A stretch of 20,446 nt of DNA from a virus: positions 1-20,446 of IMG/VR virus record IMGVR_UViG_3300019761_000016. One strand, given 5' to 3'. Both the position numbers and the translations under genes were made by a program. Each line of letters begins with the position of its first letter. Within the stretch, counting starts at the first letter, position 1. This document shows, piece by piece, positions 6,425-20,446 of the stretch. The notes below the pieces were generated by a model. That model was given only the letters and a program-made list of their open reading frames with translations. It did no database searches and was not told where the DNA came from.

Positions 6425-6430
6425 ATACGT

Positions 6431-6820: not shown

Positions 6821-6822
6821 GA

Positions 6823-7173: not shown

Positions 7174-7202
7174 GCTACAATTAATAAATAGTAAGCTATA
7201 AT
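7171..7202 (+). promoter_or_regulatory. Tandem 11-bp repeat with a -10-like TATAAT
   Basis: TAAGCTACAAT (7171-7181, beginning in the endolysin stop codon) recurs as TAAGCTATAAT (7192-7202) with one mismatch and a 21-bp period, two helical turns. The second copy ends in a perfect TATAAT (7197-7202), and no good -35 box is seen. Sigma-70 promoters in Campylobacterota often lack a conserved -35, so this may be a promoter or operator for the portal and head operon. Confidence 0.35.
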
Positions 7203-7220
7203 CGAGAAGATAACAAATGG

Positions 7221-9284
7221 ATGGTACAGATGGAAAGACCTAAAATAAAAGACATACTAAGCAAGTTCAAGAAGGATTACACTAATAGTAAGACGCAGCA
7301 CGACACGCAGATGAATAAGATACAAGACTACAGACGTGTGTACAATGCTGACCTGTACGGTAATGAAGAGGAAGGAAAGTCAAAGATTGTAAGTAAGGAC
7401 TCAAGACGTCAGTCGGAGTGGTTATACGCAAGCTTGATGGCGCCCTTCATGGATCAGGACATAATCAAGAGTAAACCAATAACATGGGAAGATAAGGCAA
7501 TTGCCAGACAGACTGAGTTGGTAATCAATACACAATTCACTAGACGATTCCCAAGATACAACTTCCTTCAGAAAGCAATAAAAATATACGACAGAGATGG
7601 TACGGTTGCTGTACAATGTGGCTGGGAATACAAAGGTAAGAAGATCCAGGTTGAGCAGGCTATCGTGATGGTAGATGAAACAACTGGCGAAGAGTACTTG
7701 GGCGGGATTGAAACAGTTACACAAGAAGTAACAAAAGTAAATAACCCGACAGCAGTAGTTAGACGAAATGAAGATGTGTTTATTGACCCTACATGTGAGG
7801 ATGATATGGATAGATGTCAGTTCGTCGTGGTAAGGTATAAATCAAATCTGAGTGGACTTAAACAAGATGGTAGATACAAGAACTTAGATAGAATCAAAAA
7901 GCACGCTGATGACGCTGATCCACAAAGTGATGAGGATTATGAAGAACAGGATGAGTCATCATTCAAGTTCGAGGACGACCCAAGAAAAGAGTTGCTGGTA
8001 TACGAGTACTGGGGTAACTATGATTTAGACGGTGATGGGATTGCTGAACCAATCGTATGTACTTGGGTAAATGACACAGTAATCAGACTACAAGGTAATC
8101 CATACCCAGACAAACAAATACCATTCCTATTCACATCAGCTAATAGTGTACCATTCGAAATGTACGGTGAGGCAAATGCTGCGTTAATTGCTGATAGTCA
8201 ACAAATCAAAACTGCTGTGTTCAGAGGTATGATTAACAACATGGCTCAGTCGAATAATGGGCAGATAATCACTAAGAAAGGCGCACTAGACACACGTAAC
8301 AAGAAACGTATGGAAGCTGGTAAGCACTTCGAAGTAAACACATCAATTGCTGATATACAACACGGTTCGTTCAACCAAATGCCAGGCACTGCGTTCGACA
8401 TGCTGAATGTAGCAGATAGAGACATTGAGTCTATAACTGGTGTTATGGGAATGAATGAAAAAGGACTAAGTGGTGGAATTGGTGGTAGTGCCAAAGGTGC
8501 TGGTGGAGTACTTGATTCAATCAGTACAAGAAGACTAAACACAGTAAGAAACCTCGCAGAGAACTTGATTAAGCCATTAGTTAGAAAATGGATTAGTTAC
8601 AACGCTGAGTTCATGTCACCTGAAGAAGTAACAAGAATAACAAATGAAGAGTATGTACAGCCAAGTACAGATGATGTTGGCTCGTCAATCGACATAGAGA
8701 TTGAGGTAAGCACAGTAGAAGATAACGCACTAAAAGCCGAAAAGCTTGCGTTTATGCTACAAACACTTGGACCGTCAATGGAGCCAGACTTACTAGCAGA
8801 GATGACAGCAGATTACTATGAGTTAGCAAAAATGCCAACAGAAGCTAAGAGAATGAGGGACAGAGCAGACCAACTGAGAGAACAGATGGCTAATCCAGAC
8901 CCAATGATCGAAATGATGAAGCAAGAAGAATATAGAGCAGCTAAGTTAGCAAATGACAAAATAGAAGCTGAGATAAGGCAAATGAAAGCAAGTGGTGAAG
9001 AAGATATAGCAGATAAAGCTGAAAAAAATTCAAAAGCGAAATTACTAGATGCTCAACGCTACAAGTTACTAAAAGAGGCTAAGCTACTTGACGAGAAGAT
9101 TGACAATGAAGCCCTTACCTACCTTAAAAATGACAATGGGGTTAGTCACTTAGAGGCGCTTGAGTTAGAAGATAGAAAAGCTGCGGGTAAGAAAGAGATA
9201 GAACAAATGAAAGCTAGAGTGAACTTGATTCAGATGAGATATCAAGCTCAGCAAGGTGATAAAAATATAGGAGTGGTAGAATAA
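7221..9284 (+). CDS. Portal protein (N4-like podovirus type)
   Basis: A 687-residue protein of the size expected for podovirus portals. It would form the dodecameric ring at the head vertex through which DNA is packaged and ejected. Visible features include the N-terminal helical region with S-E-W-L-Y-A-S-L-M-A-P-F near 65-76, a central segment with F-I-D-P-T-C-E-D-D-M-D-R-C-Q-F, and an acidic loop near 230-255. I-P-F-L-F-T-S-A-N-S-V-P-F-E-M-Y-G-E is typical of the portal core, and I-T-G-V-M-G-M-N-E-K-G-L leads into a Gly-rich turn. The C-terminal about 120 residues are a long charged helix rich in Met, Lys and Glu. The start at 7221 has GAGAAG upstream; a second in-frame ATG at 7230 is possible. 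It ends in a TAATG overlap with the next gene. Confidence 0.82.
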   Translation: MVQMERPKIKDILSKFKKDYTNSKTQHDTQMNKIQDYRRVYNADLYGNEEEGKSKIVSKDSRRQSEWLYASLMAPFMDQDIIKSKPITWEDKAIARQTELVINTQFTRRFPRYNFLQKAIKIYDRDGTVAVQCGWEYKGKKIQVEQAIVMVDETTGEEYLGGIETVTQEVTKVNNPTAVVRRNEDVFIDPTCEDDMDRCQFVVVRYKSNLSGLKQDGRYKNLDRIKKHADDADPQSDEDYEEQDESSFKFEDDPRKELLVYEYWGNYDLDGDGIAEPIVCTWVNDTVIRLQGNPYPDKQIPFLFTSANSVPFEMYGEANAALIADSQQIKTAVFRGMINNMAQSNNGQIITKKGALDTRNKKRMEAGKHFEVNTSIADIQHGSFNQMPGTAFDMLNVADRDIESITGVMGMNEKGLSGGIGGSAKGAGGVLDSISTRRLNTVRNLAENLIKPLVRKWISYNAEFMSPEEVTRITNEEYVQPSTDDVGSSIDIEIEVSTVEDNALKAEKLAFMLQTLGPSMEPDLLAEMTADYYELAKMPTEAKRMRDRADQLREQMANPDPMIEMMKQEEYRAAKLANDKIEAEIRQMKASGEEDIADKAEKNSKAKLLDAQRYKLLKEAKLLDEKIDNEALTYLKNDNGVSHLEALELEDRKAAGKKEIEQMKARVNLIQMRYQAQQGDKNIGVVE

Positions 9285-9655
9285 TGGCTAATGATTGGAT
9301 GATAGGACAAGGATTTGAGAGTACGAGAGCAGTAGACACAGAAGGTGCTGCTGAACAAGAGTATTTCGACAGACTCGACCAAAGACAAAAAGAAACTGGT
9401 GCAATAAACGGAAGTAAGCTGTACGACCTAGATAATGGTACTGGAATCAGTGAGAAGTTGAGTAATGCTGAGTTAGGTAAACAAGCAAAGCAATCAATGA
9501 GAGATCAACAAGTAGCTGGACAAGTTGCATCAGCAAAGGACCAGGAGATTGGTGCTATGTATGGTAGACTAAAAGACATAATTGAGAACACACAAATGGA
9601 GAATGAAGCACTTAAGAGTGTGATTAATCCACAAAGTTTAGCCTTCCAAGGTTAG
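9284..9655 (+). CDS. Small head-module protein, hypothetical
   Basis: A 123-residue hydrophilic, mostly helical protein, translationally coupled to the portal by a TAATG overlap. It has no membrane segment, Cys or recognised motif. The C-terminal half (around G-A-M-Y-G-R-L-K-D-I-I-E-N) is predicted helical and could be a short coiled coil. Its place between portal and scaffold matches small head-assembly genes of N4-like phages, but I do not recognise the family. Confidence 0.55.
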   Translation: MANDWMIGQGFESTRAVDTEGAAEQEYFDRLDQRQKETGAINGSKLYDLDNGTGISEKLSNAELGKQAKQSMRDQQVAGQVASAKDQEIGAMYGRLKDIIENTQMENEALKSVINPQSLAFQG

Positions 9656-9711
9656 GTTAAGCTAGTGTGTAGTAAAATTAGAGCAATAAAAGACACAACA
9701 AGGGAGTACAT

Positions 9712-9954
9712 ATGGCAAATGGATTAGCAGGAGCTGGAGCACCAGTGAATCAGCAAGGATTACAAGCTGTAGAAGAAGTTAAGGCAATGCTTATGCAAGG
9801 AGCTACACCAGAAGAATTAATTGGTATGGGTATCCCAGAAGATGTGATCATGTTGGCAATACAAGAGCTAGAAGCTGAATTAGCACAACAACCACAGGCA
9901 CAGATTGCGTCACAACCACCAAGAGCTGGATTAGCAGCACAAGGTATGGCGTAA
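9712..9954 (+). CDS. Small Ala/Gln-rich head-module protein, hypothetical
   Basis: An 80-residue protein with AGGGAG at 9701-9706 before its ATG. Residues about 18-58 form a compact helical unit (E-E-V-K-A-M-L-M-Q-G-A-T-P-E-E-L and I-P-E-D-V-I-M-L-A-I-Q-E-L) resembling a three-helix or UBA-like fold; the ends are flexible and rich in Gly, Ala, Gln and Pro. Proteins with a similar 'G-x-x-P-E-E-L-x-x-x-G-I-P' unit are common next to portals of podoviruses. Its function is unknown. Confidence 0.55.
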   Translation: MANGLAGAGAPVNQQGLQAVEEVKAMLMQGATPEELIGMGIPEDVIMLAIQELEAELAQQPQAQIASQPPRAGLAAQGMA

Positions 9955-10010
9955 GTCCATAAGTAATGACTAAAAACTTGACTAATAAATAAACAACAGA
10001 AGGACTTGCA

Positions 10011-10286
10011 ATGAGTGCAAATACCCAAGAATCTGATTTAGAAATTAGAAAAAGAGAAATAGAGTTGGGTCAGGCATTAGCCAGACTGAAAACAAATCCA
10101 GACTTCCAGTTAGTAATCGTACAAGAGTACATGATGAAAACGTTACTAGAAGATTCAGGAGACTTAATCGATATGAACCCTGCATTGAGACAACAGACAA
10201 TGGAAGAGATCATGAGTGTTAAGTACTTACAGAGAAAGCTAGAAGTTATGCAAACTACTGCTGATAATGCGGGAGAAGATGAATAA
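10011..10286 (+). CDS. Small helical head-module protein, hypothetical
   Basis: A 91-residue protein with AAGGAC ahead of the ATG. It is helical and charged, with L-K-T-N-P-D-F-Q-L-V-I near 27-37 and M-N-P-A-L-R-Q-Q near 60-67. I recall this pattern from small proteins found beside portal and scaffold genes in other podoviruses. The stop overlaps the start of the scaffold gene (TAATG), so it is probably made in proportion to the scaffold. A head-assembly role is inferred from position only. Confidence 0.55.
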   Translation: MSANTQESDLEIRKREIELGQALARLKTNPDFQLVIVQEYMMKTLLEDSGDLIDMNPALRQQTMEEIMSVKYLQRKLEVMQTTADNAGEDE

Positions 10287-11497
10287 TGGATGAGTTAAAC
10301 AACATGACAGACGAAGAGTTTGAAGCTAAGATGAACAGTGGTGAGTTCGATGAACAACTAACTGAAACATCAAGTGAAGAACAAGAGCAAGTGGAAACAA
10401 CTGAGACAGCTGAAGATACTACGGAACAACCTATTACGGATTCCAGTGATATTTCTGATGATGAAAATACAGATGACGAAACTAAAGAAGATCCGAAAGA
10501 AGATGATAAAGTGGATGCCGATCCAGACGAGTCAACAGAAGACGGGAAATCAACTGAAGAAGAGACTGAAGTAAAAGACTCAAAAGATGACCTACTCGCA
10601 GAGTATTTAAACTCTACTAGCACAATTAAGGCTATTGGTAAAGAGTTTGCGTTTACAAATAAAGAGAAGCTTGAATCATTTGACAAAGTGTACAAACAAG
10701 CGATGGACTATACACGTAAGACACAAGCAGTTGCCAAACATAGAAAAAGGATTAGTGCTATGGAAGAATTGGGCATGACGGATGAACAATTCAATACAAT
10801 GATTGATGTAGCAAAAGGTAATAAAGATGCGATAACGTCGGTAATCAAACAAGCAGGCATAGATGCACTTGATATTGATACTGAACAAGAGCTGAACTAC
10901 ACACCTAACCATCACGGTAAAAGTGATAAAGAACTAGAGATTGATGATGCATTCGGTGCAATCAAAGGTACGCCAACTGGTGATAGAACAACTAACGTAC
11001 TAGGTGCGGAATGGGATGATAGATCTAGGGACCAAATCGTTGAAGGGTTAACACTACCAAATGGTGCGAAGATGGGAACTCAAGAAGTGATTGAAAACCT
11101 ACACTACGACATGGAAAATGGGATATACGATGAAGTTGCTCCAGAAATGCTTAAGTTAAAGCAATTAGACGGTGCTAAGAAATCAGACCTAGATTACTAC
11201 GTAGAAGCAGGTATACAAAGACTTGAACGAATGGCTCAAGCAAAGGTCGCAGCTGAGCAAGCAGAGAAACTTGAGGCAGTTAGATTGCAGGCAGAAGCTG
11301 ACGCTAAGGCGAAGGTAATTGCAGACGCAAAAGCAGCACAAGTGGCTACAGAGCAAGCTAAGATTGCGGCAGAGAAGAAAAAGGCAGCAGCAGTAACGCA
11401 AGGAGCTGGTGGAACTACTAATGGAGTAGACTACTTAGATATGGATAACATGTCAGATGAAGAGTTTATGAAGTTTATGGATAAACAAATAGGATAA
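10286..11497 (+). CDS. Capsid scaffolding protein
   Basis: A 403-residue protein immediately upstream of the major capsid gene, the usual position of scaffolds. The N-terminal 100 residues are extremely acidic (runs of Glu, Asp, Thr and Ser), and the centre is a mixed helical region. The C-terminal 110 residues form a long Ala/Lys/Glu/Gln helix typical of scaffold coiled coils, ending in a short M-D-N-M-S-D-E-E-F-M-K-F-M-D-K-Q hook that may bind capsid subunits. The same D-E-E-F pattern occurs at the N-terminus (M-T-D-E-E-F-E-A-K-M), which is curious. It would guide procapsid assembly and then leave. No protease motif is seen. Confidence 0.75.
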   Translation: MDELNNMTDEEFEAKMNSGEFDEQLTETSSEEQEQVETTETAEDTTEQPITDSSDISDDENTDDETKEDPKEDDKVDADPDESTEDGKSTEEETEVKDSKDDLLAEYLNSTSTIKAIGKEFAFTNKEKLESFDKVYKQAMDYTRKTQAVAKHRKRISAMEELGMTDEQFNTMIDVAKGNKDAITSVIKQAGIDALDIDTEQELNYTPNHHGKSDKELEIDDAFGAIKGTPTGDRTTNVLGAEWDDRSRDQIVEGLTLPNGAKMGTQEVIENLHYDMENGIYDEVAPEMLKLKQLDGAKKSDLDYYVEAGIQRLERMAQAKVAAEQAEKLEAVRLQAEADAKAKVIADAKAAQVATEQAKIAAEKKKAAAVTQGAGGTTNGVDYLDMDNMSDEEFMKFMDKQIG

Positions 11498-11502
11498 CAA
11501 AC

Positions 11503-12744
11503 ATGGGATATAATACAGGAAAAACAGGTGGAGAATCTACAATAGATAACTCAGCAGGTAACGTACAACTTAACCAACATTACTACAACAAGAAAGCGAT
11601 TATCGAATCAAAAGATATGATGTACCTTGGTCAAATGTCAGGTTCAATGTCACAACCTAAACACATGGGTAAAGAAGTAGTTAAACACAGATACATTCCG
11701 TTATTAGACGACGAAAATGCAGGTGGTGCAGGATTAGGGCTTGATAGTGCTGGTGTAGCATACGCAAATGGTAACTTATACGGTTCAAGTAGAGGTACTG
11801 GTGTAATTTCAGGTAAACTACCAGAATTGTCAGAAGATGCTGAAAGAGTGAACAAAGTTTCTTTCTCAAGAAAAGAAGTTAGAGGTAATATTGTTAATAG
11901 AGGATTCTTCTTCGAGTGGACAAAAGACGAAGTGAACTTCGATTCAGACCCTAAGTGGAAAGAGCACGTAACAAGAGAAGCAGTAAAAGGTGCTACACAA
12001 ATTAACGAAGACGTACTTGCTATTGAGTTAATTAACGGTGCTGGTGTTAATATGTTCGCAGGTGATGCTACAACATTAGCTACAATTGATGCTACTTCAG
12101 TTCCAACATTGAAAGATTTATACGCTTTAGACACAGAGTTAGATAATAACAAATGTGCAAAAGACACTAAAATCATCAAAGGTTCAAGATTAGTTGATAC
12201 TAAAACAGTTGCGGCAGCTAGATACATCTTCATTACTCCAGACCAAAAAATGGATTACATGACAATCGAAGCATTAGATTCAACAGCTACTAACCCTAAA
12301 ATGGCGTTCGTGCCAGTAGAACAGTACGCAGATGCAGACAAAGACGGTAAGTACAGAAATGCAATTCACGGTGAGATCGGTAAAGTTGGTCCATTCAGAA
12401 TCGTAGTTAACCCTAAAATGGTTAAATATTCAGATGCAGCTGGTGCGGCAGTTGGTGCGGCATGGACATCAAATGCAACTAATGATGCGTTCAGAAATGA
12501 TGGTACTAAGTTCGAAGCATACGCTTCATTAATCGTTGGTTCAGAATGTTTCACACACATCGGATTCGAATACGGTGCTGGTACAAAAGGTAAGTTCAAC
12601 GTAGTTACTAAAACTCCAGAAGAGTTAAGAACTAAAGAGAACCCGTACGCTAAAACAGGTATGACTGTAATCGAGTTCTGGAATGGGGTTCTGGTTGATA
12701 GACCTGATCACTTAGCAGTATACTCAACAGCTTCTAAATACTAA
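11503..12744 (+). CDS. Major capsid protein, N4-gp56 family
   Basis: A 413-residue protein matching the N4-gp56 major capsid family, HK97 fold. It has an N-terminal arm with Y-Y-N-K-K-A-I, then Y-L-G-Q-M-S-G and Q-P-K-H-M-G-K-E-V-V-K-H-R-Y-I-P-L-L-D-D near 40-72. A central region carries E-V-R-G-N-I-V-N-R-G-F-F-F-E-W-T, and K-V-G-P-F-R-I-V-V-N-P and a Gly-rich A-Y-A-S-L-I-V-G form the C-terminal core. Codon choice is more biased (TTC, AAC, GGT, GTT) than in the neighbours, as expected for the most abundant virion protein. It follows the scaffold after five bases, and two hairpins lie at its 3' end. This family anchors the assignment of the phage as N4-like, although it also occurs outside Schitoviridae. 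Confidence 0.88.
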   Translation: MGYNTGKTGGESTIDNSAGNVQLNQHYYNKKAIIESKDMMYLGQMSGSMSQPKHMGKEVVKHRYIPLLDDENAGGAGLGLDSAGVAYANGNLYGSSRGTGVISGKLPELSEDAERVNKVSFSRKEVRGNIVNRGFFFEWTKDEVNFDSDPKWKEHVTREAVKGATQINEDVLAIELINGAGVNMFAGDATTLATIDATSVPTLKDLYALDTELDNNKCAKDTKIIKGSRLVDTKTVAAARYIFITPDQKMDYMTIEALDSTATNPKMAFVPVEQYADADKDGKYRNAIHGEIGKVGPFRIVVNPKMVKYSDAAGAAVGAAWTSNATNDAFRNDGTKFEAYASLIVGSECFTHIGFEYGAGTKGKFNVVTKTPEELRTKENPYAKTGMTVIEFWNGVLVDRPDHLAVYSTASKY

Positions 12745-12753
12745 TTAGAAGCT
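12729..12753 (+). terminator. Hairpin spanning the capsid stop codon
   Basis: A perfect 9-bp inverted repeat, AGCTTCTAA at 12729-12737 and TTAGAAGCT at 12745-12753, with a 7-base loop containing the TAA stop (12742-12744). It is A/T-rich with no U-tract. It may protect the 3' end of the capsid message or act together with the stronger hairpin that follows. Function is inferred. Confidence 0.4.
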
Positions 12754-12758
12754 AGGTG

Positions 12759-12780
12759 CTGACAGGGTTCGCCCTGTTGG
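12759..12780 (+). terminator. Strong hairpin downstream of the capsid gene
   Basis: CTGACAGGG (12759-12767) pairs with CCCTGTTGG (12772-12780) around a TTCG loop. This gives a 9-bp stem, six pairs perfect Watson-Crick, plus two G-U pairs and a closing C-G. No run of T follows, so it is more likely a partial terminator or an RNA stabiliser that lets capsid mRNA exceed downstream genes. Confidence 0.5.
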
Positions 12781-12838
12781 TTAACAAACGTCTGGTATCA
12801 CCGATGACAATAAAAATAAGATAAAACAGGAAAACAAA

Positions 12839-13360
12839 ATGGCAACAGAAAGAGAAGAACTAATAGCGAAAGCTGGCGAGATGGGATTAGAGTTCAAGAA
12901 GAACATGAGTACAGTAGATTTGCAATTACTAGTAGATGAAGCAGAACAAGAAGCAGCTGATAAAGCGATTGAAGAAAAAGCAAGTAAAGCTGAAACAGCT
13001 TCAGTAGAGGTTAGTGAAAAGATTGTAGCAGAAAAGAACAAAGCTAGTGGTATGAGATCAAGTACTGAAATGGTTAAAGTAATAGTTACTGCATTAGACC
13101 CAAGAATGAGAGAGATCCCTTCTGATATGTTTACACATATGGGTAAATTTGGTACTAAGAAACAAGTAGTTAAGTTCGGTAAAGAGCAATTAGTGTTCAA
13201 GGTAATAACAGATATGTTAGCTGAAAAGAAATCACTACAGCAAGTTAAAAGAACAAGCTCAAAAGGTAGAGAAATTACTACATATCAAATGTCCCCAGCA
13301 TTCATGATTCAAGAAATTCCGTTAACAGCAGAAGAACTAGCCGAAATACAAGGTAAGTAA
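12839..13360 (+). CDS. Capsid-adjacent head protein
   Basis: A 173-residue protein preceded by AGGAAAA. Residues 1-60 are helical and acidic, with a short fold resembling a SAP/LEM-like helix pair (E-L-I-A-K-A-G-E-M-G-L near 7-17). Residues about 78-165 are beta-rich, with V-I-V-T-A-L-D-P-R-M near 81-90 and the C-terminal P-A-F-M-I-Q-E-I-P-L-T-A-E-E-L. I recall this general layout (V-I-V-T-x-x-x-P start and a final I-x-x-x-P-L-T-x-E-E-L) in genes next to N4-gp56-type capsid genes. It is likely a head or head-neck protein, function unproven. Confidence 0.6.
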   Translation: MATEREELIAKAGEMGLEFKKNMSTVDLQLLVDEAEQEAADKAIEEKASKAETASVEVSEKIVAEKNKASGMRSSTEMVKVIVTALDPRMREIPSDMFTHMGKFGTKKQVVKFGKEQLVFKVITDMLAEKKSLQQVKRTSSKGREITTYQMSPAFMIQEIPLTAEELAEIQGK

Positions 13361-13365
13361 TTAGA

Positions 13366-13392
13366 TTCAGCTCATCAAATTGGTGGGTTGAA
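13366..13392 (+). other. Intergenic RNA hairpin
   Basis: An 11-pair stem with four G-U pairs (13366-13376 with 13382-13392) around the loop AAATT, located between two head genes. It has no U-tract, and the following gene starts 21 bases later with a strong AAGGAG. It is probably an mRNA processing or stability element rather than a terminator. Confidence 0.35.
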
Positions 13393-13413
13393 GTGTGATT
13401 ACAAGGAGACTAC

Positions 13414-13809
13414 ATGGGTACATCAATACTAAACGGTAAAAGTAAAAAGTTCGGAAAGATTGGTATAGCCAAAGCTAACACAATAGTTATTGACGTAGAT
13501 AGTAAATACGAAGACGATAGACTAAGATTTCTCTCAATGGCCACTTCGCTTGGTGTTAACTTCACAGGCACGGCAGTATCAGCAAACAACACAAATGATA
13601 GACTGGATACGCTTGAGACCGATACAGGTACAATTAATACAGAACTTGCTATACTAAACAATAAAATGGATGCAATAGCAATAGCACTTGAAGTGACGTT
13701 CAATCCAGATGGTACATTAGACACTGAGGCTTATACAGCACATACACATACGTATGTAGATGATAATGGTACTACAACAACTAATAAAACAACACAAGGA
13801 ATAGATTAA
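13414..13809 (+). CDS. Putative virion structural protein with HTHTY motif
   Basis: A 131-residue protein with a strong AAGGAG before the ATG. Residues 30-60 are mixed. Residues about 65-92 (N-D-R-L-D-T-L-E-T-D... L-N-N-K-M-D-A-I-A) look like a short coiled coil, suggesting a trimer. The C-terminus has A-H-T-H-T-Y-V-D-D followed by a Thr/Asn tail, reminiscent of beta trimer motifs in phage fibres or spikes. It could be a head fibre or decoration protein. It overlaps the next gene by one base (TAATG). Confidence 0.5.
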   Translation: MGTSILNGKSKKFGKIGIAKANTIVIDVDSKYEDDRLRFLSMATSLGVNFTGTAVSANNTNDRLDTLETDTGTINTELAILNNKMDAIAIALEVTFNPDGTLDTEAYTAHTHTYVDDNGTTTTNKTTQGID

Positions 13810-14333
13810 TGGCATTTACAGAAGACTATTTAGTAAAATATACAAACCTAATGGCGGCAGCAACAGCTGATGGCAGTCCGTATGACTTAACAAAAGCATT
13901 CGTACAGAATGAGTTCAATAACTTCAACATTACTGAGAAGGAAAAAGCTGAGTTACTTACTAACTTCATAGCAAACATAACAACTAGTATTACAACAGGG
14001 GCTATGCAAACAGCACTAGCATTAGCTGATAAAGAAGGTAAATACCAACTAGAGGTGGATAACATCGCTAAACAAGGTGGTATACTAGACTCACAGATTG
14101 CCAAAATGGTTGCAGATACTGCATACGTTGAGACACAAGAAGAGAAGTTAATCGAGCAAGTTGAGCACAATAAATTAATTAAAGCAATGGATAGTATGGG
14201 TGATATGATTGGTACAGTTGGAGCAGGAGGGTTAAAACCAACAGCAACAATGTGGGCAACGTACTTCAACCTAAACGCAGCATTAACAGGTGAGGCAGCT
14301 CCGTTAAATCCAGACTTATCACCTGCGGCATAG
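13809..14333 (+). CDS. Putative helical virion protein
   Basis: A 174-residue protein coupled to the preceding gene by TAATG. It is largely helical: I-T-T-S-I-T-T-G-A-M-Q-T-A-L near 56-69, a long Glu/Lys/Gln helix (around 70-125), then a Gly/Ala-rich tail. I recall a similar arrangement (T-x-x-M-Q-T-A-L then coiled helix) in structural proteins located after the capsid gene in N4-like phages. It is the last gene before the acyl cassette. Its function is unknown. Confidence 0.5.
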   Translation: MAFTEDYLVKYTNLMAAATADGSPYDLTKAFVQNEFNNFNITEKEKAELLTNFIANITTSITTGAMQTALALADKEGKYQLEVDNIAKQGGILDSQIAKMVADTAYVETQEEKLIEQVEHNKLIKAMDSMGDMIGTVGAGGLKPTATMWATYFNLNAALTGEAAPLNPDLSPAA

Positions 14334-14342
14334 GTGGTTAGT

Positions 14343-14582
14343 ATGACTGAAGAACAATTCCTAAGTCAGATAAATGAGTTCATCGAAGAACAGGATGGAC
14401 TTGAAATACTGGATATAGACGACTTGCTAATAAATAGTGAAATGGACTCGTTCTCGTACGCATTCTTCTGGGCCTACTTCGAGTCCGAGGTAGTAGAACT
14501 TGGCAATGAGTACGTTAATGGTATAGACTACGAAACATACACAATTAGAGACTTGTATAGAGAGTACCATGAACGTAGTTAA
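14343..14582 (+). CDS. Acyl carrier protein-like protein
   Basis: A 79-residue acidic, helical protein of the size of acyl carrier proteins. After helix I (residues 1-16) and an Asp-rich loop, L-L-I-N-S-E-M-D-S-F-S (28-38) matches the ACP G-x-D-S-L-type site, with Ser36 as candidate 4'-phosphopantetheine attachment residue. Helix II follows (39-52), and Y-T-I-R-D-L-Y-R-E (66-74) resembles the T-V-x-D-L start of ACP helix IV. I chose the ATG at 14343 over a GTG at 14334 because AGGTGG (14332-14337) is then properly spaced. It overlaps the ketosynthase gene by 14 bases, which supports a functional pairing. The Gly usually before the Asp is replaced by Met, so phosphopantetheinylation needs proof. 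Confidence 0.7.
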   Translation: MTEEQFLSQINEFIEEQDGLEILDIDDLLINSEMDSFSYAFFWAYFESEVVELGNEYVNGIDYETYTIRDLYREYHERS

Positions 14583-15435
14583 TTATGTTTACGTACTGCC
14601 AGACACAATAAGTGAAGATGGTAAGGCTATGTACATAGGATCAACATTAGAGAAGCGTGATAAAACGTTTATGAACACATACAATAGTCGGACATATAAA
14701 GACAAGGTAAACAGTATCAAACCAACTGGTAGAACTGCTGTGTTGTACGTAATTGGTCCAAGTGAACACCATAGTTGCTCTAGGGATTTCACAGATACAG
14801 CACCAATACCAAAAGGAGTAATGCCAGTACAAAGTCAAGCTGGGTTCATAGCAAGTAAAGTAGCTGCTCGATACGGTGCTGACTACTTGAGTATATGTGC
14901 CAATACCTGTGGGGCTAGTATGCACGCACTACAGGAAGCTGAGATGCTACTAAACAGCAATAAGTTCGATGATGTGATTGTGTATGCCGAAGACTGGACT
15001 GATCCAACACAAAGACTGCTGTTCGAGAAGATGGGGATAACACTAACTTGTAGTGATGGGTTTGCTATATTACACTTACAAAGAGGTGAACAAATCAGTA
15101 CAGTGAATTGGGTGTACCATGCAGACAAAAATCCGTTCTTCGTAAGTAAAGAAGGATATATGAAGGCTATGAAACCATTTGCCGAAGAGCAGATAAAAGC
15201 AGTGAAAACACATGGTACACAGACACCAAACAACACTGAGGCTGAGTATACTGCAATCGAAGAAATGTACGGTGATGTTGAGCTGATTGAGTACAAGAAA
15301 GAAATAGGTCACACACAAGGAGTTAGCACAGCAATAGAACTGTGTATGCTCCTGGATAGAGAAGAGCCAGGCAAGTACTTGGTAAATGCTAGTGGACTGG
15401 GGAACTTCTACGGAAGTTGTACAATAGAGGTATAA
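14569..15435 (+). CDS. Compact beta-ketoacyl-ACP synthase (thiolase fold)
   Basis: A 288-residue protein with the core of beta-ketoacyl-ACP synthases (KAS I/II). A-N-T-C-G-A-S (111-117) supplies the nucleophile Cys114; the following helix A-L-Q-E-A-E-M-L-L and the strand V-I-V-Y-A-E-D-W match the family. C-S-D-G-F-A-I-L-H-L (161-170) matches the S-D-G-A motif. T-H-G-T-Q-T-P-N-N-T-E-A-E (214-226) supplies His215. K-K-E-I-G-H-T-Q-G (243-251) supplies Lys244 and His248. N-A-S-G-L-G-N-F-Y-G-S (273-283) matches the C-terminal Gly loop. The family condenses acyl chains with malonyl-ACP. The protein is about 120 residues shorter than typical KAS; the N-terminal region and cap loops are reduced, so substrate or activity may differ. 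It lies directly behind the ACP-like gene. Confidence 0.82.
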   Translation: MNVVNYVYVLPDTISEDGKAMYIGSTLEKRDKTFMNTYNSRTYKDKVNSIKPTGRTAVLYVIGPSEHHSCSRDFTDTAPIPKGVMPVQSQAGFIASKVAARYGADYLSICANTCGASMHALQEAEMLLNSNKFDDVIVYAEDWTDPTQRLLFEKMGITLTCSDGFAILHLQRGEQISTVNWVYHADKNPFFVSKEGYMKAMKPFAEEQIKAVKTHGTQTPNNTEAEYTAIEEMYGDVELIEYKKEIGHTQGVSTAIELCMLLDREEPGKYLVNASGLGNFYGSCTIEV

Positions 15436-15436
15436 T

Positions 15437-15979
15437 ATGGTAAATACAATTGCACACAATAACATAGAACGAATAAAGTCACTACCGACAATTGAAGAGA
15501 TTGAGAAGTTGGTAAAACCATTGATAGAACAAAAGGCCAAGCCTGAGTTCGAGCCAACTGGTAATGATGAATACGAGCTGATGAGGATGGGTGCAAAAGA
15601 CACAGTAAAAGTATTAAAATACTTGAAAGATACTGGTGTTGAGATGGAATTACCAACTAGGACTGAGATGAAAAATTATGTGGCTCTTGGCTATGGTGCA
15701 ATAATTAGACATAAGAAAACAAGAAAGTACGCTGGGGTTGCATTAACGTTCGAAACAGAAGGCTATAACGTGTTTGCGTTCTTCCATGTGCAAGAAGAGT
15801 TGAGACGTAAGCCAGTAGTTGGTAGTATGTTCAAAGCAATAATAAAATCACTAAATAAGGAGAAACCAATGCTGATAGAATCAAGAGATATACACACGTT
15901 CAAAAACTGTGTAGTTCCGTCAGAGCTTGGGGAGAACCTATACGAGTGGAAGAAGGGTTGGTCAAAATGGGCGGGGTAG
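15437..15979 (+). CDS. GNAT-like acyltransferase
   Basis: A 180-residue protein starting two bases after the ketosynthase stop. Residues about 80-160 resemble a GNAT N-acyltransferase fold: Y-V-A-L-G-Y-G-A-I-I, strands R-K-Y-A-G-V-A-L-T-F and V-F-A-F-F-H-V-Q-E-E-L (112-122), then R-R-K-P-V-V-G-S-M-F (123-132) in place of the R/Q-x-x-G-x-G/A acyl-CoA loop, followed by a helix and I-E-S-R-D-I-H-T-F. The first Gly of the motif is Pro or Val here, so the identification is moderate. T7 gp13, encoded just before its internal core proteins, is a known acetyltransferase-like virion protein, so position fits. Because an ACP and a ketosynthase precede it, it might use acyl-ACP, as HlyC-type toxin acyltransferases do. 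That is inference. Confidence 0.5.
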   Translation: MVNTIAHNNIERIKSLPTIEEIEKLVKPLIEQKAKPEFEPTGNDEYELMRMGAKDTVKVLKYLKDTGVEMELPTRTEMKNYVALGYGAIIRHKKTRKYAGVALTFETEGYNVFAFFHVQEELRRKPVVGSMFKAIIKSLNKEKPMLIESRDIHTFKNCVVPSELGENLYEWKKGWSKWAG

Positions 15980-17109
15980 CTAAAAAGGTAGGCTCCGCAC
16001 TTGAGAAGGTTGGTGATTTAGTAGTAGCTGAGATAAAGATGTCTCTCCAGTTGAATGTTATAGCCCCTGCTAAGTTTATTGGTAGTGTTGTTAGCGGAGA
16101 TAGCTGGTCAGGTGCATTTGAGGAATTCGGTTCGGATGTTGTTACCGCTCATGGTGACTTTCTACAACAGGAGTACTTAAGCTTGTATAAACCTCTTGGA
16201 TTAGATGACAGGAGTTGGTTCGGTAAAATAGTAAAGGATTTTTTCTATGATGATGCGTACAGCACTGCTGCCATTGGGGTAATTGTAGCAGCACTAGCTC
16301 TAGCTTACTTCTCTGCTGGAACGATGTCAGATTGGTCTGCTGGTGCTATTGCAGGTGCCAGTGCATGGCTCGGTGGAGCAGCTTATGTAGCTGCTGCGTC
16401 AATGATAATCATAACAGAGATAGTTGTTGGTCTTGGTATCTCATTAATAATAGGTGGTGTAATAAATGGAGCACTGTCGCACTTGATGAACCCAAAAACA
16501 ATTCAGTTTGCTATGCAACAATTGATACAGGCGCAAGAGCAAGAAGCTAGGCTACGGTATCAGAACCTAATAGATGTAGCGGATGGCACGGTGTTTGAAA
16601 AGATGGCTGGTGGAGTTATATACAACGAAACCTACTCAGGTGGTGACTTGTATGGATATGACCAAAAGAACTCACTTGCAGTAAGTGTTGGTGGTGAGTT
16701 TGGGTTAAGTGAGGGAAATAAATTAATTAATCACGTAGATGCCGATCAAGCTGGAGGAGGGCTATTCGAAAACAAATTCAACTTGAATATTGTAAACACA
16801 GATGTGAGTGAAAGCAGTGGAGGAATGCCTCCACAGGAAGCAATAAGAATGAGAAACCTACAAAACTATAATAAGCTAACTAAGCAGTATAATACCAAGA
16901 CAAAGACATACAATGATAAAGTTGCTCAGTACAAAAGTATAGCAAATGCTTACAACGATTTGCCCTCCGCTATGAAAACTAAAGAGAGCTATGAAAGTAC
17001 AATGAAGCAGCTAAGTGTAATTGAAGCTGGCTTAGGTGGAATGGAAAAAGAGCTAACAGATATACGGAAATCAATGGAAAATGTGTGGAAGAAGCCATGG
17101 GAAAAATAG
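15967..17109 (+). CDS. Membrane-active internal virion protein (putative ejection protein)
   Basis: A 380-residue protein. I chose the ATG at 15967 (AAGGG about nine bases upstream) over an in-frame GTG at 15946; it overlaps the acyltransferase gene by 13 bases. Residues about 101-118, 124-147 and 148-170 are Gly/Ala/Ile-rich membrane segments, some with glycine-zipper spacing, separated by short polar turns. Residues 175-205 are a Gln-rich amphipathic helix and the C-terminal 110 residues form a long coiled coil with many Tyr, Asn and Lys. There is no signal peptide. The pattern of hydrophobic core plus coiled coil fits proteins ejected with phage DNA that form a channel in the envelope. The stop precedes a gene for another internal protein. 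It is the closest candidate target for the adjacent acyl cassette. Confidence 0.6.
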   Translation: MGGVAKKVGSALEKVGDLVVAEIKMSLQLNVIAPAKFIGSVVSGDSWSGAFEEFGSDVVTAHGDFLQQEYLSLYKPLGLDDRSWFGKIVKDFFYDDAYSTAAIGVIVAALALAYFSAGTMSDWSAGAIAGASAWLGGAAYVAAASMIIITEIVVGLGISLIIGGVINGALSHLMNPKTIQFAMQQLIQAQEQEARLRYQNLIDVADGTVFEKMAGGVIYNETYSGGDLYGYDQKNSLAVSVGGEFGLSEGNKLINHVDADQAGGGLFENKFNLNIVNTDVSESSGGMPPQEAIRMRNLQNYNKLTKQYNTKTKTYNDKVAQYKSIANAYNDLPSAMKTKESYESTMKQLSVIEAGLGGMEKELTDIRKSMENVWKKPWEK

Positions 17110-17175
17110 CCCCAAAGCTGAAATTAAGTGAATTAGTAGTAAGATAAAAACAAAAACCAATACAGGAGAATAGAT

Positions 17176-17523
17176 ATGTCAGGATGGATACAAGCAGCCG
17201 GATCAGTAATAGGTGGTGGGTTACAAGCCTATGGTGGAGTAAAGAGTGCTAAAATGATGGCTGATCAACAGTCAAAGATGAATCAGTTAGCACGAGACCA
17301 ATTCAATTACGCAAAAGAGTTAGCCGGTAAAGCAGATATAGCTAAGGAAAACACACAAAACGAGATGGAGATGGGGTTAGCTAACAGCTTGTATGGTAAC
17401 AAGAAGCCTGCTGCTCCGATACCTGGACAAACAACAGTACAAACAGGGTTAGCTGGTGCGGCTGGTATACCACAAGCACAAAACACGCAACAAAATCCGT
17501 TTGCAATACCACAAGTAGGATAA
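17176..17523 (+). CDS. Small internal virion protein (T7 gp14-like style)
   Basis: A 115-residue protein with AGGAG upstream of the ATG. The N-terminus (W-I-Q-A-A-G-S-V-I-G-G-G-L-Q-A-Y-G-G at 4-21) is a glycine-zipper amphipathic or membrane helix followed by a Met/Gln/Lys helical stretch, the form seen in small internal core or ejection proteins of podoviruses. The C-terminal 45 residues are flexible, rich in Pro, Gln, Ala and Gly. It probably belongs to the internal core ejected with the genome. It lies four bases ahead of the next structural gene. Confidence 0.6.
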   Translation: MSGWIQAAGSVIGGGLQAYGGVKSAKMMADQQSKMNQLARDQFNYAKELAGKADIAKENTQNEMEMGLANSLYGNKKPAAPIPGQTTVQTGLAGAAGIPQAQNTQQNPFAIPQVG

Positions 17524-17527
17524 CAGC

Positions 17528-18883
17528 ATGGCAAAAGGTTGGTATGATAACAGTGCAGAAGCAAATGCTTACTTGAGTGGTGCTAATAGAGCAACAGCGT
17601 CAGCGCAACAGGCAGCAATTGCCGGTGCAGATGCAACTCGTGGTGTATTCAATACACTTGGTAATACAGTGATAAAAGGTGTTGAATTAGCAGAACAAAG
17701 AGAACAACGGAACAAAGCTGAGGCTAAAGACAAGTTGAACTCGGAGTACCTAAAAACAGTAATTGCTGGCGGGGACGTTAGTGATAAGAAGTTCGCTGGA
17801 GTTGATGCTGGTGTACTTGCTAAGGGTGTGACGTTGCAGAACTCAATAAACACAAACACAAGAGCTGAAAATAAAGCAGAACAAGATAAGTTACTTGGGG
17901 ATGCATTGGTACAAGCAAATCAGGATAAAACGATTACTGGTACAGAGAAAAGAGTAACGAGACAAGGCAATGAGGCAGAAGTCGAACTTGCTAAAAACCT
18001 GCGTAATCGAGTTATTGATAAAAATACAAAAAGGTTACAACAACAAGAAGAAGGCTCTACAAAATATGCTGAACTGTTCGATAAATACAGTAATCAAAAA
18101 GTTGGTGCTGCTCCTAGGGTTCCTGGTACACAGTACACTAAAAATACCGATGGTAGCTATATAGAAGCAGATTCAGTATTTGGTAGATGGTTAGGTAAAA
18201 AACAACCAAGTGAACAAATGTATACTCCAGAACAGGCACATACACTTGCACTGAGAGAATCAGGGCTAGGTGGAGTTCGTGGTACATTAGAAGTGCCAAC
18301 AGTACCAAAACTAGTTGAGACAGTTACTAAGCAAGTACCAGTTACACGTAATATGACACAAACAGAGTGGTTAAAGAAGTCAGTAGACTCTATAATGAAT
18401 AGAACAGACTTGACTGGTAGCACTAAATTAGCAGCAAAGAAAGCTCTTGAAAAAGAAGTTAAAGGGCCTACATTCGATCAGCTGTTCAAGGTTAAAAAGA
18501 TGCAAAAAGAAACACAAGATGACCACAGAGTCGGTACAAATTTAGCTAAAACATTGAACATTCAGATACCAAAGGGGTTAACAGGTACTGCTCTACTGGA
18601 TTACGTAAAAGGCACTAAACAATATGCCAACCGAGGGGATGCGTTCAAGACACCAAAGAAATATGGGGCTGGGCCAAAAACGCTACAAGCGTACGATAGT
18701 GGGTTAGGCACAATTGACGAAAAAGACCAAGCTAAAATAGCAAAAGCAGCAAAAGATGTTAAGATGAGCGACGCTGATTTGGCAAGTATAATCACAACAT
18801 TCAATACTCAAGATTGGACCCCTCGGTTCAGTGGAGAGGTTACTAAAGATGTAGTAAAATACATAAAAGATAACGCTAAATAA
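17528..18883 (+). CDS. Putative internal virion protein, 451 residues
   Basis: A 451-residue hydrophilic, helical protein. The N-terminus (W-Y-D-N-S-A-E-A-N-A-Y-L and R-A-T-A-S-A-Q-Q-A-A) followed by a charged helix rich in Glu, Lys and Gln resembles internal core proteins of podoviruses. The centre includes V-P-G-T-Q-Y-T-K-N near 195-203 and a T-K-Q-V-P-V-T repeat; the C-terminus is Lys/Asp-rich. No enzymatic motif is recognised. It stands between the small gp14-like protein and the nuclease-headed protein, so it most likely forms part of the ejected core. Confidence 0.55.
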   Translation: MAKGWYDNSAEANAYLSGANRATASAQQAAIAGADATRGVFNTLGNTVIKGVELAEQREQRNKAEAKDKLNSEYLKTVIAGGDVSDKKFAGVDAGVLAKGVTLQNSINTNTRAENKAEQDKLLGDALVQANQDKTITGTEKRVTRQGNEAEVELAKNLRNRVIDKNTKRLQQQEEGSTKYAELFDKYSNQKVGAAPRVPGTQYTKNTDGSYIEADSVFGRWLGKKQPSEQMYTPEQAHTLALRESGLGGVRGTLEVPTVPKLVETVTKQVPVTRNMTQTEWLKKSVDSIMNRTDLTGSTKLAAKKALEKEVKGPTFDQLFKVKKMQKETQDDHRVGTNLAKTLNIQIPKGLTGTALLDYVKGTKQYANRGDAFKTPKKYGAGPKTLQAYDSGLGTIDEKDQAKIAKAAKDVKMSDADLASIITTFNTQDWTPRFSGEVTKDVVKYIKDNAK

Positions 18884-18939
18884 AACCATAAGACAAATTG
18901 TGCTACACTCAGTAAAATAAAAACTGAAGGTGACACAAT

Positions 18940-19931
18940 ATGCCAACTCAAAAAGAATTACTAGATAGTGCGTTCGCAGAACCAACTACACAAACAAATA
19001 AATACAACACAGATACATACATATACGATGCTGATACCGTATACCAAGACGGACAAGGATATAGAATAGCTGGAATTGATGCACCAGAAATGCCAAAAGC
19101 TGCACTAAAAGCTGATAGACTGAGCAAAGCAAGAGAAAGTAAACTTGGTAGACACGTAAGTAAAGCAACAGCTGGAGAAGCCGCTAAATTAGAGGCTGAG
19201 TTCAGTACACTGGATTTCAGTGGAATTGATGGGGGCTTCCAAGAAACACACTTCGACGATACAAAACAACAACCAGTATATCAGAATACACCAGAAGCAT
19301 CGACAGTTGGGGTGCATGGTAGAGACGTGATAGAGAATAAGGCATACCAGAATAAAATGGTATCCGATGGGTATGCAATACCTGCATTCGATAATCAAAC
19401 ACCAGAAGCACAAGAACTGATGCTACAAGCAAAAGAGCAAGGCAAAGGACTATGGGCTGACCCAGAGTACGCTGCAGAAATGGAATCAGTTGCTAGTAAA
19501 CGTGGCACAGAAACAGTAAGACCAGTAGAAGATTACAACACGCTAAGAGGAGTTGGTAGTGCTTCGTTCAATGTAGGGGTAAAAGTAGGCTCACTTGTTG
19601 GTGAGGGGATTGAGTCACTTGGACAACTGATTGGGGTTGAGGATGTAGAGAAAAGTGGTACAGCAATACAACAAGCTGCTACAGAGTTCCTACAAAGTGG
19701 GTTTGCTGATAAGATAACTGGGTACAATGCAGTAAACGTGCAAGAACTGAGTAAAGAGATAGAAGACACAATAGAAACAGATGGATATATGTCGGCACTT
19801 GGTAAAGCTGTAACGGATGTAAGATCACTTGAAGTGCTTGCAGGGAGCTTACCTGAAATGGTTGCACTAGCTGCAAGTGTTGGTACAATGGCCGTAGCTA
19901 ACGTAAATAATAACATTAACATAGCAGAATC
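18940..19931 (+). CDS. Internal virion protein with N-terminal thermonuclease-like domain, 3'-truncated
   Basis: About 330 phage-encoded residues remain; GAAGGTGA precedes the ATG. Residues 24-52 match the staphylococcal nuclease (TNase) opening: Y-D-A-D-T-V (29-34) and Y-R-I-A-G-I-D-A-P-E (41-50), giving Asp32, Arg42, Asp47 and Glu50 equivalents of the Ca2+ and catalytic site. After an inserted acidic linker, H-G-R-D-V (126-130, Arg128) and V-S-D-G-Y-A (141-146), then K-G-L-W-A (169-173), match the later TNase strands. A helical region with Gly-rich amphipathic segments (203-230) follows. In N4-like phages this position holds large ejected proteins, so the native gene was probably much longer. 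The frame reads on to 20181 only by chance through bacterial sequence; the phage part ends within about 19920-19945. Confidence 0.65.
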
Positions 19932-19945
19932 GAAATTAAAGAGAA
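19920..19945. other. Phage-bacterial chromosome junction (breakpoint zone)
   Basis: Left of this zone the codon style is phage-like and continues the internal virion protein. To the right, from about 19935, a different frame encodes the bacterial flavoprotein C-terminus. The exact base cannot be placed, because A-rich sequence (AAATTAAAG) fits both. No att core, tRNA or integrase accompanies it. Confidence 0.7.
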
Positions 19946-20408
19946 AATTAACAAAATTCTTAGTATCAAAGGTAAGAAAACAGTTGATGAAATTCATAAA
20001 GAACTTGGTCTTATCATGTGGGAAAATGTTGGTATGGCTCGTTCTTCAGAATCTCTTAAAAAGGCTTCAGAGCTTATCAAAGGGGTTAGAAAAGAGTTCT
20101 GGTCAAATGTATTTGTTCCTGGTACAGCAGATGATTTCAATCAAGAGCTTGAAAAAGCAATTCGTTTGGCTGACTTCATAGAATTAGGTGCACTTATGGC
20201 ACGTGATGGTCTAAACCGTAACGAGTCTTGTGGTGGTCACTTCCGTTTAGAATACCAAACTCCAGAAGGAGAAGCTATGCGTAATGATGAAGATTATAAA
20301 TACGTTAGTATTTGGGAATATAAAGGTGAAGGTGTTGAACCTGCTATGTCTAAAGAAGAATTAGTATTTGAAAATATCAAAGTTGCTCAACGTAACTACA
20401 AAGATTAA
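19935..20408 (+). CDS. sdhA: Succinate dehydrogenase / fumarate reductase flavoprotein subunit, C-terminal fragment
   Basis: An in-frame run without stop from 19920 encodes I-N-K-I-L-S-I-K-G-K-K-T-V-D-E-I-H-K-E-L-G-L-I and onward to a TAA at 20406-20408, about 157 residues. It holds the conserved C-terminal motifs of the SdhA/FrdA type found in Campylobacterota and Bacteroidota: W-E-N-V-G-M-A-R, E-L-G-A-L-M-A-R-D-G-L, R-N-E-S-C-G-G-H-F-R, Y-Q-T-P-E-G-E-A-M-R-N-D-E-D and V-S-I-W-E-Y-K-G-E. The FAD domain and most of the active site are absent because the 5' part is replaced by phage DNA. The subunit oxidises succinate or reduces fumarate at the membrane. Codons CGT, CTT and TCT differ sharply from the phage. 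The ATG at 20016 is internal, not a start. It is a broken copy in this contig. Confidence 0.85.
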   Translation: MKEKINKILSIKGKKTVDEIHKELGLIMWENVGMARSSESLKKASELIKGVRKEFWSNVFVPGTADDFNQELEKAIRLADFIELGALMARDGLNRNESCGGHFRLEYQTPEGEAMRNDEDYKYVSIWEYKGEGVEPAMSKEELVFENIKVAQRNYKD

Positions 20409-20420
20409 GGAGTTATAAAA

Positions 20421-20446
20421 ATGGATTTAAAATTAAAAATATGGCG
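20421..20446 (+). CDS. sdhB: Succinate dehydrogenase / fumarate reductase iron-sulfur subunit, first codons only
   Basis: An ATG 12 bases after the flavoprotein stop, with a canonical AAGGAG (20407-20412), opens M-D-L-K-L-K-I-W and runs off the window. The N-terminal M-x-L-x-L-K-I-W fits iron-sulfur subunits of the same complex, and the order flavoprotein then iron-sulfur protein is the usual operon. Only eight codons are visible, so the call rests on context. Confidence 0.6.

Follow-up and report, generated by a model that had tools for sequence, protein, structure and literature searches.

A phage gene cassette of acyl carrier protein, ketosynthase and probable GNAT acyltransferase that may lipidate a virion ejection protein

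The acyltransferases HlyC, ApxIC and CdiC have the GNAT fold without the usual coenzyme A (CoA) elements and take the acyl group from acyl carrier protein (ACP), according to the available part of PMC8339906. The gene cdiC adjoins the gene of the protein that its product lipidates, and the lipid is proposed to anchor this target in lipid A (PMC8510554, available in part). Here we describe a stretch of 20,446 nucleotides (positions 1 to 20,446 of the IMG/VR virus record IMGVR_UViG_3300019761_000016, further referred to as the window), where three consecutive genes of a virion operon encode an ACP-like protein, a beta-ketoacyl-ACP synthase (KS) and a probable GNAT-fold acyltransferase directly upstream of an ejection-type protein. 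The GNAT family found at the third place in related loci likewise lacks the usual CoA elements, and its gene, like cdiC, adjoins the gene of the predicted substrate. In contrast to the RTX toxin activators and CdiC, which modify lysine, the phage GNATs have no invariant histidine and no Pfam match. To our knowledge, RTX toxin-activating loci contain no ACP or KS gene.

FabF (KAS II) and AcpP of type II fatty acid synthesis have the fold family and the catalytic residues in common with the phage KS and ACP. Unlike FabF, the phage KS scores far below the NCBIfam equivalog cut-offs, forms a separate clade in a limited sample and is encoded in a virion operon. Unlike in type II synthesis, a scan of 32 phage records detected no phosphopantetheinyl transferase (PF01648); it was not aimed at further fatty-acid genes. 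A small protein encoded directly before the ejection-protein genes, as the phage GNAT is, occurs in P22, where the gene order is 26-14-7-20-16 and gp14 (DUF2824) lies upstream of the ejection genes, and in T7, where gene 13 (gp13, PF11090) precedes genes 14 and 15; unlike in the cassette, no ACP or KS gene stands beside them in the stretches shown. Capsid proteins such as VP4 of picornaviruses are myristoylated by a host enzyme (N-myristoyltransferase) using an acyl-CoA donor, whereas the phage would bring its own carrier, synthase and transferase. Myristoylated VP4 acts in poliovirus genome translocation (PMC8545138, available in part), and such an acylated N-terminus in the delivery of a genome across a membrane is the parallel predicted for the phage. 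Phage ACPs have been described as well: R22Y gp30 and R6L ORF 32 are phage-encoded like the window ACP, but were published as genes of fatty-acid metabolism (PMC11705849 and PMC5463345, both available in part).

The enzyme families and ACP-dependent protein acylation are known, and a phage ACP-KS-GNAT system appears to be undescribed in the open-licence PMC literature, where no paper on acylation of phage virion proteins was found; the original prediction, made from the sequence of the window, had known of no characterised phage system of this kind either. The analysis establishes to which families the genes belong, that their order is conserved, that the catalytic residues do not vary and that purifying selection acts on the genes; it also establishes that the main third-gene family has the GNAT fold and that the protein encoded downstream has a conserved N-terminus. 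We propose, giving the idea a little less than an even chance, that the cassette is dedicated to the lipid modification of an ejection protein of the virion.

Ketosynthase and acyl carrier protein

The late (virion) operon of the window comprises genes for the portal, the capsid protein, small proteins, the ACP, the KS, a protein of 180 amino acids (aa) and a protein of 380 aa. Its features relevant to this study are given below with the evidence used for each open reading frame (ORF).

7221..9284, + strand: portal protein, SU10 type (PF23899, E 1e-111)
11503..12744, + strand: major capsid protein, N4 gp56 type (phrog_1357 major head protein, E 1.8e-78)
14343..14582, + strand: acyl carrier protein-like protein, 79 aa (ORF, ATG start)
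14569..15435, + strand: beta-ketoacyl-ACP synthase, compact, 288 aa (PF02801, phrog_35856, catalytic alignment, tree)
15437..15979, + strand: probable GNAT-fold acyltransferase, 180 aa (position, pairwise similarity, weak model match)
15967..17109, + strand: ejection-type protein, probably membrane-active, 380 aa from ATG, the predicted substrate (N-terminus MGGVAKKVGSALEKVGDLV)
17528..18883, + strand: further late protein after the predicted substrate (ORF; no family match)

ORF calls confirmed the three consecutive genes of the original prediction, the ACP and KS genes overlapping by 14 bases (14569-14582) and the KS and third genes being separated by 1 base. A GTG start at 14334 is likewise open for the ACP ORF. 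The predicted setting within a virion operon also stands, and the cassette lies downstream of the portal and capsid genes and upstream of the ejection-type protein. The claim that the cassette shares the codon style of the phage is broadly right: total GC content of the three genes (0.388-0.411) is inside the range of 15 other window genes (0.358-0.424), as is their codon likelihood, and third-position GC of the ACP gene (0.45) and the third gene (0.403) is just above that of the other window genes (0.242-0.401).

The window KS matches PF02801 (E 1.2e-6, above the cut-off) and phrog_35856 (E 9.4e-15) and has no PF00109 match; two scanned KS relatives match both Pfam families. TIGR03150 (fabF) yields 31.4 bits (E 7.7e-8) for the window KS and 107.6 for the KS of locus L088, and the equivalog cut-off of 493.75 is not reached. 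Aligned with E. coli FabF, the window KS keeps Cys114 (14908-14910), His215 (15211-15213), Lys243 and His248 (15310-15312). It is compact, with 288 aa vs approximately 370 aa in most phage relatives. The profile of the KS family matches solved beta-ketoacyl-ACP synthases (best 2e-29). In loci selected by profile only, the catalytic residues are kept throughout (Cys in 191/191, His in 190/190, Lys in 188/188 and the second His in 188/188, missing cells being contig ends); loci chosen by a His-containing motif gave 128/128.

In a maximum-likelihood tree of 72 KS (a limited sample with long inner branches and provisional branching order), the window KS pairs with the KS of a Sulfurospirillum-associated contig (support 100/99). 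Next to this pair comes the main phage clade (100/98), and the remaining cellular KS of the sample group separately. Reading of its ORFs suggests that the Sulfurospirillum-associated contig is phage-like. A second contig from a metagenome-assembled genome (MAG), that of a Balneolaceae bacterium, falls inside the main KS clade and carries ACP, KS and GNAT. Judged by these comparisons, the window KS is a true beta-ketoacyl synthase relative of a phage-specific kind.

The predicted phosphopantetheine serine of the window ACP is Ser36 (bases 14448-14450), situated in MDSF (the D-S-F motif). The protein has no PP-binding match in Pfam or NCBIfam, and a phage ACP profile built without it scores it at 7.9 bits. 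The closest ACP found for it, which shares DSF, is encoded on the Sulfurospirillum-associated contig: the pair scores 95 vs 27 +/- 5 for shuffled sequences (0/2000 as high), and tblastn gives E 0.008. By this evidence the window ACP is a divergent outlier that keeps its serine. Among the profile-selected loci, an ACP is found beside the KS in 190 of 191 (the lone exception, L094, is cut by a contig end) and its serine is kept in 190/190; the ACP gene is directly upstream of the KS gene, in most loci with an overlap of a few to 24 bases. The phage ACP profile aligns with E. coli AcpP (hhalign probability 85-88%, E 3e-6 to 6e-6 for one comparison) and matches solved ACPs (best E 2.7e-4). Single phage ACPs are weakly recognized by PF00550: 9 of 48 match at E <= 1 (best 0.0012), and 6 of 32 phage records have a match, none of them over the Pfam cut-off, with the PT11-V19 ACP at 20.7 bits vs the cut-off of 20.8.

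The third gene and the GNAT fold

Proteins of the main third-gene family are mostly 140-210 aa long, have a VDSK-like start and contain GNT and NAD...NF motifs. The AlphaFold2 model built from 42 sequences (predicted local distance difference test, pLDDT, 94.7) has the order of elements beta1-alpha1-alpha2-beta2-4-alpha3-beta5-alpha4-beta6-7, that of GNATs. VIA-align placed this model next to solved GNATs with Z up to 12.0 (root-mean-square deviation 2.6 over 125 residues), and its listing includes the N-alpha-acetyltransferases RimI (Z 11.9), Ard1 (10.7) and NatF (10.3). Nearly all of the 50 solved entries listed are acetyl- or acyltransferases or CoA complexes, and 3ld2 names no function. 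Absence of HlyC-type enzymes among the structure matches listed is uninformative. On the strength of the model, the main family is firmly assigned to the GNAT fold.

None of the 42 main-family members has the CoA pyrophosphate motif [QR]xxGx[GA] at the beta4-alpha3 position (4 matches occur elsewhere), and N[AV]DxxxN[FY] replaces the pyrophosphate loop in 39 of them. This absence fits the expectation for a donor other than CoA. An Asn, an Asn, an Asp and an Asn are invariant in 42/42 members; no His column is invariant, the best one having His in 36/42.

An ACP, a KS and a GNAT without the CoA motif would also suffice to make an N-acyl small molecule, and GNATs of the LuxI and FeeM types use acyl-ACP. 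The trio might then produce an N-acyl amino acid or a signal acting in the lysing cell or on its neighbours. The constant neighbour of the cassette, however, is a virion-type protein with the N-terminus as its conserved part, which is a weak argument given that transporters and regulators were not searched for. We consider a small-molecule product very improbable.

We take P22 gp14 and T7 gp13 to be GNAT-like, as judged by eye. Among the viral structure matches listed by Foldseek for the GNAT model there is a DUF2824 protein (rank 50, E 6.8e-3). No sequence link between the GNAT family and T7 gp13 was detected, and the best 80 relatives of P22 gp14 were 94-100% identical, so that they gave no diverse family alignment. 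Gene position, the one structure match and our inspection of the P22 and T7 sequences together suggest that placing a small GNAT-like gene ahead of the ejection genes is an old arrangement, to which the ACP and KS genes seem to have been added.

The same likeness opens another explanation, in which the GNAT-fold protein, and perhaps the ACP and KS with it, has been reused as a non-catalytic assembly chaperone for ejection proteins. The annotations read probable scaffold protein for T7 gp13 (PF11090) and head morphogenesis for P22 gp14, both of which precede ejection genes, and a family without the CoA motif would suit such a role. Yet a scaffold would need neither the invariant Cys-His-Lys-His of the KS and the serine of the ACP nor the four polar residues kept in 42/42 GNAT members, and we regard purely structural reuse as rather unlikely.

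Neither the window third protein nor three members of the main family have a Pfam match; the former has no PHROG match either, and its NCBIfam match is unrelated and far below the cut-off. The single-sequence model of the window protein is poor (pLDDT 42.7); the best Foldseek match of this model is a GNAT, though a weak one (E 0.027, prob 0.93), and in VIA-align all its Z-scores are below 5. The third gene of the Sulfurospirillum-associated contig encodes a protein whose sequence suggests a GNAT. The window protein aligns with it at a score of 52 vs 28.9 +/- 4.6 for shuffled sequences (2/2000 as high), while BLASTP gives E 0.25 for the same pair. Furthermore, the position of the window gene corresponds to that of the GNAT-fold third gene in related loci. 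The window third protein is probably a GNAT.

Other candidate links of the window third gene were rejected: none was found by hhalign with the main GNAT family, T7 gp13 or the third gene of R22Y and PT11-V19, nor with P22 gp14 by shuffled pair scores, which were computed for both the window and the Sulfurospirillum-associated third genes. Scanning the 107-kb contig of the window phage with the GNAT profile gave no match, without a positive control for this record. The window third gene and capsid protein had no match in the Sulfurospirillum MAG, whose third gene was recognized by reading the DNA.

As to the enzyme types that had been predicted, the ACP and KS are thus firm at the family level and the GNAT is firm for the related third-gene family, the window third protein being only a likely GNAT. 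Of the profiles named with the prediction, PF02801 was found on the KS, while PF00109, PF00550 and any Pfam match for the third protein were not; structure prediction gave the GNAT fold for the main third family and a model of low quality for the window protein.

Gene linkage and the protein downstream

In the IMG/VR scans the best 80 loci at most were kept per scan. KS relatives numbered 51 when searched with the MW202545.1 protein, 166 with a two-sequence profile and at least 582 among 600 candidate stretches with a 20-sequence profile (best 80 examined; some may be KS of the cellular type). In contrast, tblastn detected a full-length close KS relative in just one of 50,697 GenBank phage records, MW202545.1; there the ACP-KS-small gene order is found just upstream of large proteins, one with an SLT domain. 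The other tblastn matches in records labelled as phages (23-34% identity over a part or most of the query) look like cellular FabF or FabB. Vibrio phage Vp_R1 has no annotated cassette in the first 50 kb of its 112 kb (its proteins were not searched). By the proposed search of phage genomes, the trio thus looks widespread in IMG/VR and was found in a single GenBank phage record.

Three loci cut by contig ends (L129, L250 and L252) were left out, reducing the set from 190 to 187. A hidden Markov model scan of these KS loci found ACP, KS and GNAT in 168, ACP and KS without an adjacent GNAT in 18, and KS with GNAT, cut before the ACP, in one. As the set includes repeats of one contig, we also counted distinct KS proteins (140): 124 had the ACP-KS-GNAT arrangement, 15 had no adjacent GNAT and one had KS with GNAT, cut before the ACP. 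Of the 18 loci, six end within approximately 120 bases of the KS and ten form a separate ACP-KS group; the other two are L107 and the window phage, with its diverged third gene.

The separate group (L004-L010, L017, L022 and L030) may differ in function. In 6 of its 10 loci the ACP is preceded by a 446-aa ORF, the sequence of which in L007 suggests a helicase. The GNAT profile found nothing in five ACP-KS-only records, for which there was no positive control.

A scan led by the GNAT identified at least 444 relatives, of which the best 80 were kept. It added 75 new loci: 69 with KS and ACP, two with KS and the ACP cut off, and four without KS (L277, L295, L298 and L328). The latter still encode a similar MSAVV-type protein after the GNAT.

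Conservation of the linkage in other loci excludes a chance association. The original prediction had named unlinked genes with randomly lost catalytic residues as evidence against it; instead, the linkage is kept for 124 of the 140 distinct KS and the catalytic residues are invariant. In nine hand-picked pairs, the ratio of nonsynonymous to synonymous substitution rates was 0.01-0.20 for the ACP, 0.03-0.09 for the KS and 0.04-0.14 for the GNAT (one undefined); by these estimates, all three genes are under purifying selection. Decay of the genes was ruled out by these ratios together with the kept catalytic residues.

The linkage bears on the reading of the ACP and KS as auxiliary metabolic genes that alter host fatty-acid synthesis or membrane lipids, with the GNAT a neighbour by chance of late expression. 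Published phage ACPs have been interpreted in this way in R22Y (gp30, PMC11705849), R6L (ORF 32, PMC5463345) and roseobacter prophages (acpP, fabF and fabG, PMC8224337), as far as the available parts of these sources go, and the ten loci with ACP and KS away from GNAT agree with it. It accounts poorly for the position of the ACP and KS directly upstream of the same GNAT family in 124 distinct cases, for the same type of N-terminus encoded after the GNAT, for a KS clade of its own that includes two phage-like MAG contigs and lies apart from the other cellular KS sampled, and for the KS-less loci that retain the GNAT and the downstream protein. We consider auxiliary metabolism unlikely, while still deserving serious attention.

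Within 10 bases of the GNAT stop codon begins a gene for a protein with the N-terminus M-[G/S/A/P] plus small or hydrophobic residues, followed by a Val/Ala/Asp-rich stretch. Of 152 such proteins found, 150 were placed within 10 bases and yielded 47 distinct sequences. The motif is present in 45 of these 47, whereas none of 221 other genes from these loci has it. Gly occupies position 2 in 16/47 vs 6/221 background genes, and Gly, Ser or Ala in 43/47 vs 91/221.

More weight is given to independent lineages. Gly is at position 2 in all four outlying ones: the window (MGGVAKKVG), the Sulfurospirillum-associated contig (MGGTAKIIGG), R22Y (MGGLVNSIL) and PT11-V19 (MGKLGSAVW). The N-terminal 60 residues of the window and Sulfurospirillum-associated proteins align at 47 vs 25 +/- 4.7 for shuffled sequences (1/2000 as high), and over the whole length the pair has no detectable resemblance (233/1000 shuffles). 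On the Sulfurospirillum-associated contig the ACP, the third gene and the MGGTAKI protein are found together, the KS being located about 8 kb further on. The cultured Alteromonas phages R22Y and PT11-V19 encode an ACP, a 167-aa protein (a possible acyltransferase) and the MG... protein with no KS between them. This layout is at L417 23774-27301 and L418 22858-25683, respectively, and in PT11-V19 it lies upstream of an annotated RNA polymerase. The R22Y ACP ORF in it is presumably gp30, the published account of which, in its available part, mentions neither the neighbouring possible acyltransferase nor the MG... protein (PMC11705849).

The N-terminus of the window ejection-type protein is amphipathic (moment 0.51), and the protein has three hydrophobic segments (residues 102-120, 131-149 and 152-170). 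The prediction of a membrane-active protein directly after the cassette is supported as a possibility, membrane activity being suggested by the amphipathic character of the N-terminus and by a location ahead of ejection-type proteins.

Instead of the N-terminus, a lysine of the same ejection protein could be acylated in the manner of HlyC or CdiC. HlyC-type enzymes combine the GNAT fold with an acyl-ACP donor and have no CoA-binding elements (PMC8339906, available in part), and CdiC attaches lipid to a Lys in a surface protein (PMC8510554, available in part). However, 31 of the 47 downstream proteins contain no Lys within the first 30 residues, internal Lys still being possible, and HlyC-type enzymes use a conserved His/Asp dyad (PMC8510554, same part), whereas the best His column of the phage family reaches 36/42. 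Lysine acylation is improbable in our estimation.

Window bases 1-19954 are identical to a 107,713-base IMG/VR contig, which also encodes an SU10-type adaptor, a family A DNA polymerase, a ribonucleotide reductase large chain and PhoH. The window portal is closest to those of Alteromonas phages AD45-P1 to P4 (48%), followed by R22Y and PT11-V19 (43%), and tblastn matches of the capsid protein (11503..12744) carry N4 gp56-like annotation. Capture of a host fatty-acid operon by the contig was ruled out, as the KS is of the phage type and has a full-length close relative in the phage record MW202545.1. The last 492 bases of the window (19955-20446) have no match at that place in the otherwise identical contig, and the ORF at 20016-20408 presumably encodes the C-terminus of a bacterial succinate dehydrogenase flavoprotein, which it resembles; hence the right end of the window is probably an assembly chimera.

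Several other late genes were noted. The 232-aa protein at 5726-6424, in which we assume a PAS-like stretch, is unusual for a virion or lysis region, and the 116-aa protein at 6823-7173, resembling M15-type peptidases, is presumably a lysis enzyme. Two late proteins of L143, encoded at 208-11028 (contig 28208-39028), are very large, with at least 2154 and at least 1239 aa; neither has a Pfam match at E 0.01, and they are probably ejection or virion proteins. In L066 (9254-16618) the N-terminus MSFIVDAV... opens a single ORF of giant size (at least 2455 aa); in other groups, this region is divided among several genes.

Proposed role in genome delivery

If the cassette tailors lipids for the ejection protein, a host phosphopantetheinyl transferase would convert the phage ACP to the holo form. 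The phage KS would take an acyl group from the host pool and condense it with malonyl on the phage ACP, setting the chain length or leaving a beta-keto group; this step is suggested by the intact Cys-His-Lys-His. The GNAT would take the chain from the ACP, not from CoA, and move it to the adjacent ejection protein, the acceptor most likely being an N-terminal Gly, Ser or Ala exposed by Met removal. The acylated N-terminus, packed in the virion, would help the ejection protein to enter the host membrane during genome delivery. Overall, the observation underlying the original prediction is confirmed and its interpretation is partly supported.

A number of points weigh against this role. Acylation and its target are inferred. 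The window third protein gains no confirmation from structure, and the GNAT may be a non-catalytic assembly factor, cf. the "probable scaffold protein" annotation of T7 gp13 (PF11090). As the N-terminal motif was formulated post hoc on 47 proteins that are related to one another, its count reflects conservation and not 47 independent events; two of the four outlying lineages (MGKLG and MGGTA) depart from the full motif, and a small residue at position 2 is common and could mean only Met removal. A transmembrane-type hydrophobic segment (Kyte-Doolittle) is seen in only 15 of the 47 downstream proteins, many of them partial, and the helical moments (median 0.55) are without a control. ACP and KS stand apart from any GNAT in 10 of the 187 loci, and 4 of the 75 GNAT-led loci, two of them apparently from one phage, have no KS. 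AD45-P1, the closest phage by the portal, has no ACP ORF at the corresponding place, and the phosphopantetheinyl transferase family was not found in the 32 records mentioned above.

A broader version of the proposal is possible, though doubtful. The cassette may be a viral counterpart of N-myristoylation, with a phage carrier, synthase and GNAT N-acyltransferase placing a phage-specific lipid at the N-terminus of the ejection protein by which the host membrane is pierced, and P22 gp14 and T7 gp13 may be reduced versions that use host donors to acylate or acetylate. The KS-less GNAT loci provide a natural test of the use of host donors by the GNAT, and R22Y and PT11-V19 are good laboratory models.

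A cassette devoted to acylation would explain in concrete chemical terms how the ejection proteins of short-tailed phages enter through bacterial membranes; judging by the annotations of T7 gp13 and P22 gp14, what the small gene ahead of the ejection genes does seems unsettled. If the proposal is true, phage ACPs now listed as auxiliary metabolism would have to be re-read, and bacterial viruses, among the uncultured of which the cassette looks widespread, would have converged with animal viruses on lipid-modified entry proteins of the myristoylated kind.

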